In this document: one piece after another, positions 57,808-63,698 of the stretch
How the letters are laid out: each line of letters starts with the position of its first letter
Position numbering within the stretch: position 1 is the first letter of the stretch
Source: Ruegeria lacuscaerulensis
GTDB lineage: Bacteria; Pseudomonadota; Alphaproteobacteria; Rhodobacterales; Rhodobacteraceae
Direction: 5' to 3'
Assembly: GCF_013031245.1 (NCBI RefSeq)
Contig: NZ_WPZL01000001.1
Coordinates: 248,001 to 312,000 of the forward strand
Length of the DNA stretch: 64,000 nt
Translations under genes and position numbers: made by a program
The notes under the pieces: model-generated
Database searches by the model: none
What the model saw: the letters and a program-made list of their open reading frames with translations, nothing else
What the model was told of the DNA's origin: nothing

Positions 57808-59201
57808 TCAGGCGGCGCTTTGCCGAACCCGGACCTGATTGCGACCAGCCGATTTCGCCGCATAAAGCGCGGTGTCGGCTGATTTTATCAGCGTGTCCAG
57901 CAGCGCAGGCTGGCGCAACTTGGATGAGGGCTGGGTTACGATCAGGCCGATGCTGATCGTAACCGGCACCGGGGCAGGGGTATCGGGCAGGTCGAACGGT
58001 TTCACACGGATGCAATCACACAGGTTCCGGGCCAGTTTCAGGGCCTTTTCCTGTGTGGTGTCAGCAAGGCCTATCATAAACTCTTCGCCACCGATCCGCG
58101 CGACAAAACCGGCAGAGGCGACCGTGCGCTCCATCCGAATGGCGGCTTCGGCCAGAACGTGATCCCCCCGGCATGACCAAACCGATCGTTGATGGCTTTG
58201 AAATGATCCAGATCAGCCAGCATGACGGCAAAGCCATGCCCGGCATGTGTGGACCGGTGGGCAATCAGACCCATCGCGTGCATTGCATAGCGGCGATTAT
58301 GCAAACCGGTCAGAGGGTCAACCCAGGATTCGGCGATCCCTTGCCGCAGAGAGGCGCGCATCTGGTCCAACCGCGTTATGCGGGCAACCTGGCCATCCAA
58401 CCGCAGCAGCGTTTCCTCGGCGCAGAATCCGTCCATGCAAATCGCGTCAGCCCCCCGGTCCAGCGCTTCCGAGGCCAGGTCGGCGTTATCGCCTTCAACT
58501 ATACCGATCACCACGGTGTTCCGCGTGGCACCTCTCGATTTCAAGTCGGCAAGCAGGTTCAATCCGAAAGGGTTCGCGCTCACTTCAAACAAAATTGCAT
58601 CCGGAACAGGCCCGGATAGAAGTGCCTGAAGGTCCGATACTGTGTGCGTGGACAGGTTGTGTCGTGTGGATTTCGATAGTCCGATTTGCCATAGCGCGCC
58701 GGTGTGTGAGGTTTGCGTCAGAATAGCAACACGGCCTTCCTTGCGAGGGGTTATTAGCGCGGCAGTAGGTTCGGCAAACCCAATCGGCTGCGATCCATTC
58801 CCGACACGCAAATCCTGTGTATCTGCGCGTACTCGCAACAGGCTGCGTACCCTCGCCAGCAAAAAAGTATCCTTGAACGGATGTGCCAGAACATCGTCCA
58901 ATCCGTCGGCCAGGGCCTGTAACCTGGCTGCTTTGTCATTTTGCGGAGCGATAGCAACCACTGGCACATCAATCAGGTCCGGATCCGCCATGACCAGCCT
59001 TTTTACATCTGCAGCGGTGCCGTCCGGCAATGTCTGAGAGGTCAGCACCAGATCGGGTTTCGTGCGCCGCAACAGCCCGGCAAGCCCCTGCAGCTTTTCG
59101 CCCTGCACGACTTGATACCATGCTGCTGTTAGTTGAACTTTCAGCATGATGCGATTGGTCGAGGTCCCGTCGAGGACAAGGATAGTTCCCTGCACGGACA
59201 T
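57808..59201 (-). pseudogene. pleD: PleD-like diguanylate cyclase, frameshifted in the GGDEF domain
   Basis: Two receiver-like domains and a GGDEF domain in two frames. Frame A (from 59201) runs through DPLTGLHNRR and LADLDHFKAINDRFGHAGG and then goes out of frame at a run of six C at 58164-58169. The other frame supplies DHVLAEAAIR, ARIGGEEFMIGLAD and the C-terminus to 57808. Adding one G/C rejoins them. Both receivers lack the phosphoryl Asp (VLTSQTLPDG, AILFEVSANP), and no RxxD inhibitory site precedes GGEEF. This may be a true pseudogene or a homopolymer sequencing error. Confidence 0.8.
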
Positions 59202-59288
59202 TTGAGTCACCATTGATTGCATGCGTTGCCAAAGTCTTTATGAGTCTGGTTAACAAACCCTTTCCAAGTTCTGATCCGGGGCCGTTTT

Positions 59289-60330: not shown

Positions 60331-60345
60331 CGACATAGCTTGTCG
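60331..60345. promoter_or_regulatory. Inverted repeat upstream of the mttB-like gene
   Basis: CGACA-TAGCT-TGTCG, a 5-bp inverted repeat with a 5-base centre, 67 bases before the ATG of the methyltransferase gene. It could be an operator, but no regulator is encoded next to it and the repeat is short. Confidence 0.3.
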
Positions 60346-60411
60346 CATTCAGAGCGGCTACATACCCGGCTTCAGGGCTTGCTTGAGAAAACGCAAGTTC
60401 CGGAGGACACA

Positions 60412-61971
60412 ATGGCTGACACAAAAACCCGCAGACGTCGCGCTGGAGGGCGAGCCGGTGCCGCAGAACGCAGGGGCAGTGCCGTGATCGATCAGATGCC
60501 CTGGAACCCTCCGGTCAATATCGACAACCCGACCGAGCCGCTGGGCGAGGATGGAATCGAGGCGATACACGAAGGGGCCATGCGAATCCTCGAAGAGATT
60601 GGTGTCGAATTCTACAACGAAGAGGCCAAAGGCATTCTGAAGGAAGCTGGTTGCACGGTTGAGGGCGACAACGTTCGCATGGGCCGGGACTTTGTGATGG
60701 AAATGGTGAAAAAGGCACCTTCCAAATTCACCATCACTCCGCGCAATCCTGATCACACAATCGAGATTGGCGGCAAAAATATCGTGTTCGGCAACGTGTC
60801 ATCTCCACCGAATTACTGGGATATGGAGATCGGCACCAAGGTTCCAGGAAACCGGCAAATGTGCCGTAATCTGTTGAAACTCACCCAGTATTTCAACTGT
60901 ATCCACTTTGCAGGGGGCTATCCGGTCGAGCCGGTCGATATTCACGCCAGTGTCCGGCATCTCGACGTTCTCTATGACAAGCTGACCCTGACTGATAAGG
61001 CCATGCACGCTTATTCGCTGGGCAAGGAACGTGTCGAAGACGTGATGGAAATGGTCAGGATCGCTGGGGGGTTAAGCCACGAGGAGTTTGAAGAAACCCC
61101 GCGGATGTACACCAATATCAACTCTACTTCACCGCTGAAACACGACCACCCGATGATTGACGGTTGTTTGCGTTTGGCGCGTCGTGGGCAGGCGATCGTG
61201 GTGACGCCGTTTACACTTGCCGGGGCGATGGCACCGGTGACGATGGCCGGAGCAGTGGCTCAATCGCTGGCCGAAGCCCTGTGCGCAATCGCTCTGTTTC
61301 AATATGTTCGCCCCGGGATACCCTGTGTCGTCGGAACGTTTACATCCAATGTGGATATGAAGTCGGGTGCTCCGGCGTTTGGCACACCGGAATATATGCG
61401 CTCGACCCAGATGACAGGACAGATGGCGCGATTTTATGACCTGCCAATGCGCTCATCGGGCGTTTGCGCAGCTAACGTGCCGGACGGGCAATCGGTGTGG
61501 GAAACGTCGAACTCACTGTGGGCGGCTGTGCAGTCGGGGACGAATATGGTCTACCACGCGGCCGGATGGCTGGAAGGCGGGCTGATCGCAAGCCCCGAGA
61601 AATTCATCATGGATTGCGAGGTTCTTCAGCAAATACAACGTTATATGCAGCCCGAGATAACGGCGACCGGACCCGATGAAATCGCGTTGGATGCGATCCG
61701 TTCTGTTGGAAACGACGGCCATTTCTTTGGTATCCAACACACGCAGGACCGCTACACAACTGCGTTTTATCAGCCCTTCCTGAGTGATTGGAAAAACTAT
61801 GAAGGCTGGGATGTCGCCGGAGGTATATGGACTGCAGAACGCGCCCATCACATGTTCAAGGAAATCATCACCAGCTTTGAGCCGCCCGCGCTGGACGACG
61901 GGATTCGGGAAGAACTTGCCGACTTCGTGGAACGCCGCAAGGCCGAGGGTGGGGCGCCTACGGATTTCTAG
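60412..61971 (+). CDS. Trimethylamine methyltransferase (MttB)-family protein, non-pyrrolysine type
   Basis: A 519-residue MttB-superfamily protein. It has a basic, disordered N-terminus (RRRRAGGRAGAAERR), then MRILEEIGVEFYNEEAKGIL, NVSSPPNYWDMEIG and VTPFTLAGAMAPVTMAGAV. The frame is uninterrupted and has no amber codon, so the pyrrolysine of archaeal MttB is absent. Such members demethylate quaternary amines such as glycine betaine, passing the methyl group to a corrinoid protein. GGAGG precedes the ATG at 60412. No corrinoid protein gene is adjacent in this window. Confidence 0.82.
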   Translation: MADTKTRRRRAGGRAGAAERRGSAVIDQMPWNPPVNIDNPTEPLGEDGIEAIHEGAMRILEEIGVEFYNEEAKGILKEAGCTVEGDNVRMGRDFVMEMVKKAPSKFTITPRNPDHTIEIGGKNIVFGNVSSPPNYWDMEIGTKVPGNRQMCRNLLKLTQYFNCIHFAGGYPVEPVDIHASVRHLDVLYDKLTLTDKAMHAYSLGKERVEDVMEMVRIAGGLSHEEFEETPRMYTNINSTSPLKHDHPMIDGCLRLARRGQAIVVTPFTLAGAMAPVTMAGAVAQSLAEALCAIALFQYVRPGIPCVVGTFTSNVDMKSGAPAFGTPEYMRSTQMTGQMARFYDLPMRSSGVCAANVPDGQSVWETSNSLWAAVQSGTNMVYHAAGWLEGGLIASPEKFIMDCEVLQQIQRYMQPEITATGPDEIALDAIRSVGNDGHFFGIQHTQDRYTTAFYQPFLSDWKNYEGWDVAGGIWTAERAHHMFKEIITSFEPPALDDGIREELADFVERRKAEGGAPTDF

Positions 61972-62092
61972 CTTTTTCGCAAGGACTTCCAGTTCGAGAC
62001 TTGATCATATTGTCTGAATCTCGCCATCCATCTTGGGGGTTTGTTAAGGATTGTCAGGCCAGACTGGGCGTGTAACCAATCTGGGGCATCTC

Positions 62093-62683
62093 ATGCATGG
62101 TCTGATCAATCGGGCGATACAGTCCTTTGTATGCGCGACTTACGGGCAATCGTGCTGGCTACGTGTGACCGAGGCGGCCGATCTGGGCTTTGCCGAGTTT
62201 GAAGCCATGCTTGTCTATGATGATGACGTGACTGTCCGCGTCATGGATGCGCTTTGCGCTGATCTGAACAGGCCACGCGCAGAAATCCTTGAAGATCTGG
62301 GAACTTATCTGGTTTCACACCCCAATATGGAGGACTTGCGCAGGCTGCTGCGGTTCGGCGGCGTTACATATGTGGAATTCCTTCATTCTCTGGACGATTT
62401 GTCCGACCGGGTTCGGCTGGCAGTGTCCGATCTCAGCCTGCCCGAATTGGAACTCAGAGAAGTGAATCCAATGGAATATCAACTGTGTTGCCACCCGGGT
62501 TTGCCGGGCTTTTCCAGTGTCATGGTGGGCGTTTTGCGTGCCATGGCCGACGATTACGGAGCTTTGGCCATGCTATCCCATGATGGGCAGGAGGGTGAGG
62601 CAGACGTTATCTCAATAGTCCTTGTAGAAAGCGCATTTGCAGAAGGGCGCCATTTTGACCTGGGGCGCGCAAGTTATGATTGA
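62093..62683 (+). CDS. Heme NO-binding (H-NOX/HNOB)-fold protein lacking the usual heme ligands
   Basis: A 196-residue protein that starts MHGLINRAIQSFVCATYG and continues ILEDLGTYLVSH and FLHSLDDLSDRVRLAV, the HNOB fold. In a gapless alignment with Thermoanaerobacter H-NOX, Ser104 stands where the proximal heme His should be. Tyr129 is followed by QLCCHPG rather than xSxR, so the heme propionate motif is missing too. It overlaps the following HNOBA-GGDEF gene by 8 bases. It probably regulates that cyclase, but whether it binds heme or NO is doubtful. Confidence 0.82.
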   Translation: MHGLINRAIQSFVCATYGQSCWLRVTEAADLGFAEFEAMLVYDDDVTVRVMDALCADLNRPRAEILEDLGTYLVSHPNMEDLRRLLRFGGVTYVEFLHSLDDLSDRVRLAVSDLSLPELELREVNPMEYQLCCHPGLPGFSSVMVGVLRAMADDYGALAMLSHDGQEGEADVISIVLVESAFAEGRHFDLGRASYD

Positions 62684-63698
62684 TACGGAAAACCTAGCGA
62701 CTCTTCTGGATACGCTTTGCCCAATGTTCGTGCTGGTGGACGATGGGGGCAGGATAATTCGTGTCGGCCCAACATTGCAAAAATTACGACCTGATCAGCC
62801 GATGGCCGGCAAGAATTTTCTGGATGTCTTTGAGTTGGTTCGTCCCCGTGCCGTGACCACAATTTCTGCGCTAATGACGCTGGCGGGGGCAAAAGTGCAT
62901 CTGAAACTCCACGATACACCGCGCACCGCGCTCAAAGGGTTGATCGCCCCGCTGCCCCACGGAAAGGGTGCGGTTATCAATCTGTCCTTCGGAATTTCGA
63001 TATTGGATGCCGTAGGCGATTATGCTCTGACCAGCGCAGATTTCTCCGGCACCGATCTGGCGGTTGAGCTGCTGTATCTGGTTGAAGCCAAATCCGCCGC
63101 GATGGAAGCCTCGCGGTCGCTGAACCTGCGCTTGCAGGGGGCAATGCTGGCAGCTGAAGAGCAAGCATTTACCGACATGCTAACCGGAGTGAAGAACCGG
63201 CGCGCGATGGACGTCTTTCTGGGGCATCTGATATCCGGGAACTCGCCCTTTGCACTGATGCACCTGGACCTGGATTTCTTCAAATCCGTCAATGACAGGT
63301 TTGGACATGCCGCAGGGGATTACGTGCTGCAGCAAGCTGCCCGGATTATGGTGGAGGAAACCCGTAACGACGACACAGTTGCCCGCATTGGAGGGGATGA
63401 GTTTGTAATTATTTTCAAGGGGTTGGCAGACGAAATTATTATATCGGCAATTGCCGGGCGCCTAATTGACAGGTTGCAGATCCCCATGGTGTTCGAAAAC
63501 AATACCTGCCGAATTTCCGCAAGCATCGGAACCGCCTTGTCCACTCAGTTTACACCGCCGAAAGCTGCAGAAGTCCTCCATGCTGCTGACCTCGCCCTGT
63601 ATGAGGCAAAAAGGAATGGCAGGTCTCGCCATTGCCTTTATTCAACGCTTGTAGATCTTCAGAGAACGAACGCGGCAACCGATACGCCCTCGGAATAG
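62676..63698 (+). CDS. HNOBA-GGDEF diguanylate cyclase
   Basis: A 340-residue protein. Residues 12-135 match the H-NOX-associated (HNOBA) PAS-like domain: FVLVDDGGRIIRVGPTLQKL and FLDVFELVRPRAV, ending ADFSGTDLAVELLYL. A coiled-coil helix (136-162) leads to the GGDEF domain. That domain has DMLTGVKNRRAM, HLDLDFFKSVNDRFGHAAGD, the catalytic GGDEF at 239-243 and an RxxD inhibitory site at 230-233. It should synthesise cyclic di-GMP with product feedback. It overlaps the H-NOX-like gene, so the two are one sensor-output unit. Confidence 0.9.
   Translation: MIDTENLATLLDTLCPMFVLVDDGGRIIRVGPTLQKLRPDQPMAGKNFLDVFELVRPRAVTTISALMTLAGAKVHLKLHDTPRTALKGLIAPLPHGKGAVINLSFGISILDAVGDYALTSADFSGTDLAVELLYLVEAKSAAMEASRSLNLRLQGAMLAAEEQAFTDMLTGVKNRRAMDVFLGHLISGNSPFALMHLDLDFFKSVNDRFGHAAGDYVLQQAARIMVEETRNDDTVARIGGDEFVIIFKGLADEIIISAIAGRLIDRLQIPMVFENNTCRISASIGTALSTQFTPPKAAEVLHAADLALYEAKRNGRSRHCLYSTLVDLQRTNAATDTPSE

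Follow-up and report, generated by a model that had tools for sequence, protein, structure and literature searches.

H-NOX proteins that lack the proximal heme histidine have been described before. According to the accessible text of Lee-Lopez and Yukl 2022 (PMC8738867), fewer than 10% of the members of H-NOX group 5, whose seed is the P. denitrificans H-NOX, carry this histidine and most have proline in its place. The group has no conserved cysteine, and how its members sense anything is posed as a question. A figure legend of the paper names GGDEF and MTTB among the H-NOX neighbours, the group not being specified in the text.

For P. denitrificans, the available part of another study (PMC5588039) notes the missing histidine, as also for R. 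sphaeroides. Biofilm is underproduced by its hnoX mutant and overproduced by one without both predicted cyclases; inhibition of DgcA by H-NOX is the authors' suggestion. NO acts also without H-NOX. According to the accessible text of later work on this species (PMC12582929), c-di-GMP could not be measured, which weakens the argument for inhibition. The D. shibae H-NOX is listed in a review (PMC8846402, accessible part) as a heme NO sensor whose NO-bound form inhibits Dgc1.

Here, we analysed an H-NOX gene and a cyclase gene in a 64,000-nucleotide stretch of Ruegeria lacuscaerulensis DNA, called the window. A first-pass annotation made from the sequence had offered the pair as something unusual. 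The His-less pair is, however, the usual state in the sampled clade and is already published, both as the ligand-less group 5 type (PMC8738867) and as the missing ligand of P. denitrificans (PMC5588039), so far as the accessible texts go. By the description of its features the clade fits group 5, and the window protein is a genuine and unremarkable member of a group that is known but still unexplained.

Lost canonical heme ligation in an H-NOX fold

The gene pair and the sites discussed below are as follows.

62093..62683 (+): H-NOX-fold protein of 196 amino acids without the proximal heme histidine (H-NOX group 5 type), from Pfam HNOB, the clade tree, the AF2 model and PDB matches
62402..62404 (+): Ser104 codon, in the column of the proximal heme histidine, from the alignments
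62489..62503 (+): codons 133-137 (C-H-P-G-L), holding the columns of the lost YxSxR, from the alignments
62676..62683 (+): 8-base overlap of the H-NOX and cyclase genes, from the sequence; possible translational coupling
62676..63698 (+): HNOBA(PAS-like)-helix-GGDEF diguanylate cyclase of 340 amino acids from ATG, from Pfam, NCBIfam and the AF2 model
63363..63374 (+): RxxD (RNDD) inhibitory-site motif, cyclase residues 230-233, kept in the partner cyclases
63390..63404 (+): GGDEF catalytic motif, cyclase residues 239-243, kept in the partner cyclases

The H-NOX protein matches Pfam HNOB (PF07700) with 80.6 bits, above the curated cut-off of 25.5, and is the single HNOB match of its own genome (5.27 Mb). 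Its AF2 model (pLDDT 87.9, pTM 0.84) is matched by VIA-align to sGC beta (8hbf_B; Z 22.1, rmsd 2.0 over 177) and to the Nostoc H-NOX (2o09_A; Z 21.4, rmsd 2.2 over 178). Profile and predicted model together support the H-NOX fold that the annotation had proposed. Among the best 80 of at least 562 relatives, the closest named ones belong to Ruegeria, with up to 90% identity.

We aligned 60 proteins of the window's kind with 31 canonical H-NOX from their own family. The proximal column is His in 31/31 canonical proteins and Ser104 in the window protein; across the 60 it is Pro in 45, His in 5, Ser in 3 and another residue in the rest. A profile alignment with the Nostoc H-NOX gives the same register and places Ser104 on its proximal histidine, so the earlier claim of a serine in place of the histidine holds. 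A conserved proximal histidine, set against that claim in advance, was not found for the His-less members.

The YxSxR motif occupies columns 133, 135 and 137, which are Tyr (31/31), Ser (30/31) and Arg (30/31) in the canonical proteins and Cys133, Pro135 and Leu137 in the window protein. Among the 60, column 133 is mostly Cys (34/60) or Val (16/60). The annotation had seen YxSxR reduced to Tyr129; the loss of the motif stands, but its tyrosine column is Cys133 and not Tyr129. With both the proximal histidine and YxSxR of a canonical NO sensor missing from the sequence, the canonical heme ligation is lost, so the window protein is presumably not a canonical heme NO sensor. One canonical-type H-NOX elsewhere (L179, G086:C4) keeps the Tyr and Ser of YxSxR and has Gln at the proximal position.

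Extent of the clade and candidate substitutes

The final set held 277 loci with H-NOX. Removal of 22 duplicates left 255 distinct proteins, and 219 of them form the clade, whose members carry 7-9 of nine marker residues while the others carry 0-3. The trees used for counting changes at residue 104, the 198-protein conservation set and the earlier counts rest on smaller sets from an earlier filter, 'not Tyr133'. This filter left L257 (His104, Tyr133) out of the conservation set, the parsimony count and the earlier count of Trp/His135.

Residue 104 in the 219 is Pro (136), His (27), Ser (24), Ala (12), Gln (6), Arg (5), Asn (3), Glu (2), Thr (2), Lys (1) or Gly (1). Since His104 is missing from 192/219, its absence from the window protein is no private mutation. 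The sampling was uneven and partly targeted (mostly higher-scoring listed members, the best 80 of at least 562 near the window and 40 low-scoring loci), so 27/219 is no unbiased share of His104; an earlier set gave 15/179. In the 36 H-NOX proteins outside the clade, the proximal position is His in 35 and Gln in one.

The 60 proteins of the window's kind make one clade on a long stem with 100/99 support, from a bootstrap that had not settled. Among the sampled genomes of Rhodobacteraceae, 296/394 have an HNOB match of any kind. A profile of the window's kind matches at E <= 1e-12 in 161/196 genomes of the order sample, a few of the matches being canonical (for example G294). In the class-wide sample, it matches in 9/385 genomes. 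Four of these, all in Rhodobacteraceae, score above 280 bits. The remaining five, at 73-110 bits, are H-NOX with His and Tyr-x-Ser; four come from other families and one, L221, which is identical to L002, from Rhodobacteraceae. G814, a genome from the same genus as the window, has two profile matches, and the listed one (C2:183908-184285) covers only profile positions 69-194, as if split.

Conservation is strong elsewhere in the protein. In the 198-protein set 40 columns are at least 95% conserved, none of them Cys. Clade-specific residues, at least 95% in the 198 and at most 25% in 37 other rows (L257 among the 37), number 29 and are the same in His-bearing and His-less members. Pro117, Gly70 and Gly146 are each kept in 219/219.

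The state of residue 104 varies even inside single genera. L257, L266 and L268 have His104 with Tyr133, and L043 and L267 of the same genus have Asn104 with Ser133; His and Asn are the two states of genus g120. Genus g310 has four His and three others (Pro, Glu, Arg). Hence, as far as sequences tell, the histidine has probably been lost several times within the clade. This variation argues better for repeated loss than the trees or the link with residue 135 described next, but it is no proof that the losses are recent: the H-NOX of the two states share only 44-49% identity within g120 and 40-62% within g310, and old duplicates or transfer may be involved. The best trees have 11 to 14 changes at residue 104 inside the clade, of which branches with good support require just 2 or 3, and by parsimony on a weak tree the window's Ser104 derives from Pro.

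Trp or His at column 135 goes with His104 (17/27 against 18/192 His-less members, p 2e-9, not corrected for kinship). The association was stronger (13/19 against 10/179) before genus g378, with Ala104 and Trp135 in seven species, was added. An independent-pairs test of His104 against residue 135 found only 2 usable pairs and so had no power.

The window protein might still bind heme, weakly or through His98, His76, His2 or Cys133, and sense NO, which we consider rather improbable. The fold is kept in the model, His98 is found in 138/192 and His2 in 172/179 His-less members, and many relatives have a nitrite reductase, so NO is probably made. However, YxSxR is gone (Tyr at column 133 in 3/219), position 104 ranges over P, S, A, Q, R, N, E, T, K and G, and no residue stands out as the replacement, His98 being in 14/27 members with His104 against the above 138/192 without it (p 0.04, uncorrected for kinship). 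His98 lies six residues ahead of 104 in the same helix and its column is Glu or Asp in 24/31 canonical proteins, which makes it unlikely to point at the iron. Thus, of the two substitute ligands named by the annotation, His98 is common enough but seems misplaced, and His134 is not conserved (32/192 His-less members).

The annotation had also put forward Cys132 and Cys133 as a switch. Cys133, with Cys132 in the window protein, would be a redox, NO or persulfide switch, to which we give only a slight chance. Cys133 is in 143/219 clade proteins, more often in His-less (137/192) than in His-bearing members (6/27), and reaches at least 90% among 69 proteins around Ruegeria. Switching by Cys and zinc is known in the heme-free V. 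cholerae H-NOX (PMC7108781, accessible part). But many members have Val, Leu, Ala, Ser or Ile at this column, only 4/192 His-less members have Cys132 and no other Cys column is conserved, and group 5 too is without conserved Cys in the accessible text of PMC8738867. Cys133 may have a role in part of the clade; Cys132 is not conserved. A V. cholerae-type Zn/Cys3 redox site was rejected as the mechanism of the whole clade, column 133 being the only Cys-rich one and conserved Cys columns being absent.

Alternatively, the pocket would bind another small ligand such as an organic acid, a lipid or another tetrapyrrole as the signal. Hydrophobic residues at columns 5, 73, 100, 103, 117 and 148, which we take to line the pocket, are kept in the clade, several of them, like the invariant Pro117, Gly70 and Gly146, without heme. 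Among the PDB matches of the model are H-NOX structures with bound drug-like acids (4iae, 5mnw). However, the core may be conserved for structural reasons, and the YxSxR triad, which holds drug-like acids in H-NOX, is lost. We regard another ligand as unlikely, while the kept columns would fit it and so count against the heme-free regulation proposed below.

The window genome has three cytochrome d1-type genes, for NirS and relatives (G000:C12:10406-21066), and with NirS encoded it probably makes NO. That the histidine was lost because exposure to NO had ended was tried as an explanation and rejected: NirK or NirS is found in 9/15 genomes with His104 and 27/65 others (p 0.25). The NirS of the window genome and this lack of a significant difference also count against the heme-free regulation proposed below. 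The count covers 80 of the first 100 listed genomes, including all 15 His104 genomes then known. PF02239 also matches relatives of NirS, so NirK above the cut-off and NirS-sized matches were counted by hand; G069, with NirK above the cut-off and NirS split over contig ends, was added.

The cyclase partner and the promoter box

The window cyclase scores 135.5 bits with Pfam GGDEF and 26.4 bits with HNOBA (PF07701; cut-off 23.4), the latter match being partial (profile positions 7-81 of 216). Its AF2 model (pLDDT 86.8, pTM 0.52) has a helix at 125-187 followed by GGDEF, and residues 15-107 read as PAS-like from the strand order of the model. The PDB matches are mostly GGDEF domains and hardly test the PAS part; the PAS-GGDEF structure 5xgd spans 1-330 with an rmsd of 24.6. 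GGDEF and RNDD are both intact in the sequence as in a diguanylate cyclase, in agreement with the apparent activity read by the annotation.

The two genes had been taken as one module, a view strengthened by the 8-base overlap, which is real, and by the pairing across the clade. The cyclase adjoins the H-NOX in 217/219 clade loci; in L257 the two are fused, and L216 is cut by a contig end. Among the 217 adjacent cyclases, 216 have the GG[DE]EF motif and 214 have RxxD-N5-GG[DE]EF. L202, on a stretch ending at a contig end, is the exception to both, and L232 with RxxE and L080 without RxxD are the others to the second. L257 (131-1777, -) holds H-NOX and GGDEF in one 549-aa frame with His104 and Tyr133 kept, scoring 103 bits with HNOB, 144.7 bits with GGDEF and 16.1 bits, below the cut-off, with HNOBA.

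An intact, full-length cyclase of the window's kind was searched for at E <= 1e-60, from which a diverged copy could escape, in 38 listed genomes that lack such an H-NOX (20 had no HNOB match at all and 18 no match at 1e-12), and none had it. Two of the 38 hold remnants, in one case a fragment at a contig edge that contains a stop, in the other a copy with two stops. Four positive-control genomes taken along all gave the cyclase; 3 of these 42 genomes were not both more than 90% complete and less than 5% contaminated. The H-NOX and cyclase genes seem to live and die together, judging by these searches.

Two other genes of the window lie nearby. An MttB-family methyltransferase gene at 60340-61971 (+) scores 268 bits with TIGR02369, below the NCBIfam cut-off of 525, and MttB is within 3 kb upstream of the pair in 110/141 loci. 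At 57808-59222 (-), a PleD-like receiver-GGDEF gene, perhaps the second cyclase, is split by a frame change into a 382-aa and a shorter open reading frame. In the loci of relatives, 24 open reading frames have both parts in one frame, with 466-478 aa where listed. The split gene is either a real pseudogene or a sequencing error.

A box upstream of the pair is shared by most of the clade loci sampled.

62033..62047 (+): CtrA-like promoter box TTGG-N7-TTAA upstream of the H-NOX gene, conserved in the clade; putative CtrA binding

TTAA lies 38-60 bases ahead of the start codon in 130/140 clade loci, with the consensus TTGG-N7-TTAA, and in four bins elsewhere it is found in 1, 7, 13 and 8 of the 140. 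The canonical set has TTAA in the same interval in 10/30. The CtrA box is TTAA-N7-TTAA, and this full site occurs in 0/140 clade upstream regions. TTGG-N7-TTAA resembles it, and CtrA may be the factor.

Published work on D. shibae describes a quorum-sensing response of hnox and dgc1 and lists hnox with the CtrA phosphorelay; rcc02629 of R. capsulatus is likewise controlled by CtrA (PMC6473078, PMC7232146 and PMC9143464, accessible parts). A predicted CtrA site of D. shibae is, however, named ahead of dgc2 and not hnox in the accessible text of PMC6473078, which counts against the box as a CtrA site.

That ten different residues replace His104 might be read as a His-less protein decaying without function. 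This is scarcely credible, being contradicted by the strong conservation elsewhere in the protein, the tight pairing, the co-loss with the cyclase and the conserved promoter.

A proposed heme-free partner among the known systems

Our leading explanation, to which we give about an even chance, is that the window H-NOX is an obligate, heme-independent regulatory and probably inhibitory subunit of the neighbouring HNOBA-GGDEF cyclase, timed mainly by expression. The H-NOX would bind the PAS/coiled-coil part of the cyclase and would hold its activity down without heme or a ligand. The direct complex and the inhibition are inferred. For inhibition the strongest in vivo pointer is the P. denitrificans genetics, obtained in another species and with both cyclases removed, and the review's statement on the NO-bound D. 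shibae H-NOX goes the same way. Control would come mainly from the timing of operon expression through the CtrA-like box, with CtrA as the presumed factor, and feedback would act at the I-site of the cyclase.

The H-NOX may rest in a conformation like that reached by other H-NOX proteins when NO breaks the Fe-His bond. The displacement of the proximal histidine by NO is the usual on-switch (PMC7108781, accessible part), and an H-NOX that lacks the Fe-His bond could therefore have the on state as its resting state. The model gives Z values of 22.1, 22.0 and 21.6 against NO states of human sGC and of 20.8 and 20.5 against inactive or unliganded ones, and of 17.7 and 16.8 against active and inactive Manduca sGC. 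Against S. oneidensis H-NOX, Z is 16.2 for the His-less mutant H103G and 16.7 for the wild type. The difference between the NO and inactive states is small and gives only a hint toward an NO-like conformation of the predicted model. Moreover, the ferrous-NO form of the Caulobacter H-NOX is not inhibitory at all (PMC12329717, accessible part), so an NO-like state does not generally mean on.

A wider evolutionary reading, possible but doubtful, is that heme is an optional, repeatedly discarded cofactor and that a gas sensor became a heme-free, CtrA-timed brake on c-di-GMP synthesis. The ancestor would have been a heme H-NOX with His104 and Tyr133, as still in L257, L266 and L268. Many conversions to a heme-free subunit would have followed, often frozen by Pro104 in an NO-bound-like state, while His-bearing sister species would keep the gas sensor with Trp/His135 replacing YxSxR.

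What is new here is the variation of the histidine within a genus, the 29 residues kept alike with and without it, the adjacency or fusion in 218/219, the co-loss of the pair, the conserved TTGG-N7-TTAA box and the placement of the D. shibae protein in the His-bearing minority. In the literature searched, which covered few subscription papers and some texts in part, we found no report of the box, the within-genus variation, the H-NOX-GGDEF fusion or the co-loss. Most clade members are relatives of NO sensors that have lost the residue holding heme, yet they have stayed paired, across the Rhodobacteraceae, with a signalling enzyme whose motifs are intact. Pfam names the domain 'Haem-NO-binding' although most clade members cannot hold heme in the known way. 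The natural series of His and His-less forms within one genus, one of them fused, makes the question of what is sensed directly testable.

Among the known systems, group 5 resembles the clade in its mostly Pro and rarely His at position 104 and in the kept hinge Gly, and the seed gene of P. denitrificans overlaps a GGDEF gene (PMC5588039, accessible part) as the window pair does. Unlike most of the group, the window protein has Ser and not Pro at 104 and has Cys133, and the partly targeted sample has His in 27/219 against the published 'fewer than 10%'.

The Nostoc Alr2278 and sGC beta1 H-NOX share the fold and are the best solved matches by sequence and structure. The Nostoc H-NOX, the best match, keeps the proximal histidine and YxSxR that the window protein has lost, and sGC beta1 keeps both as well. 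The heme-free V. cholerae H-NOX offers a precedent for H-NOX signalling without heme, as proposed for the window protein. But its homologues keep the proximal histidine, and its Cys3 zinc site (PMC7108781, accessible part) is not conserved in the clade.

The D. shibae pair of H-NOX and Dgc1 belongs to the window's clade, with the cyclase adjoining and both MttB and a TTGG-N7-TTAA box upstream. The D. shibae protein differs, however, in having His104 and Trp135 where the window protein has Ser104 and Pro135, and as a His-bearing minority member it yields results that are not simply transferable to the rest of the clade.
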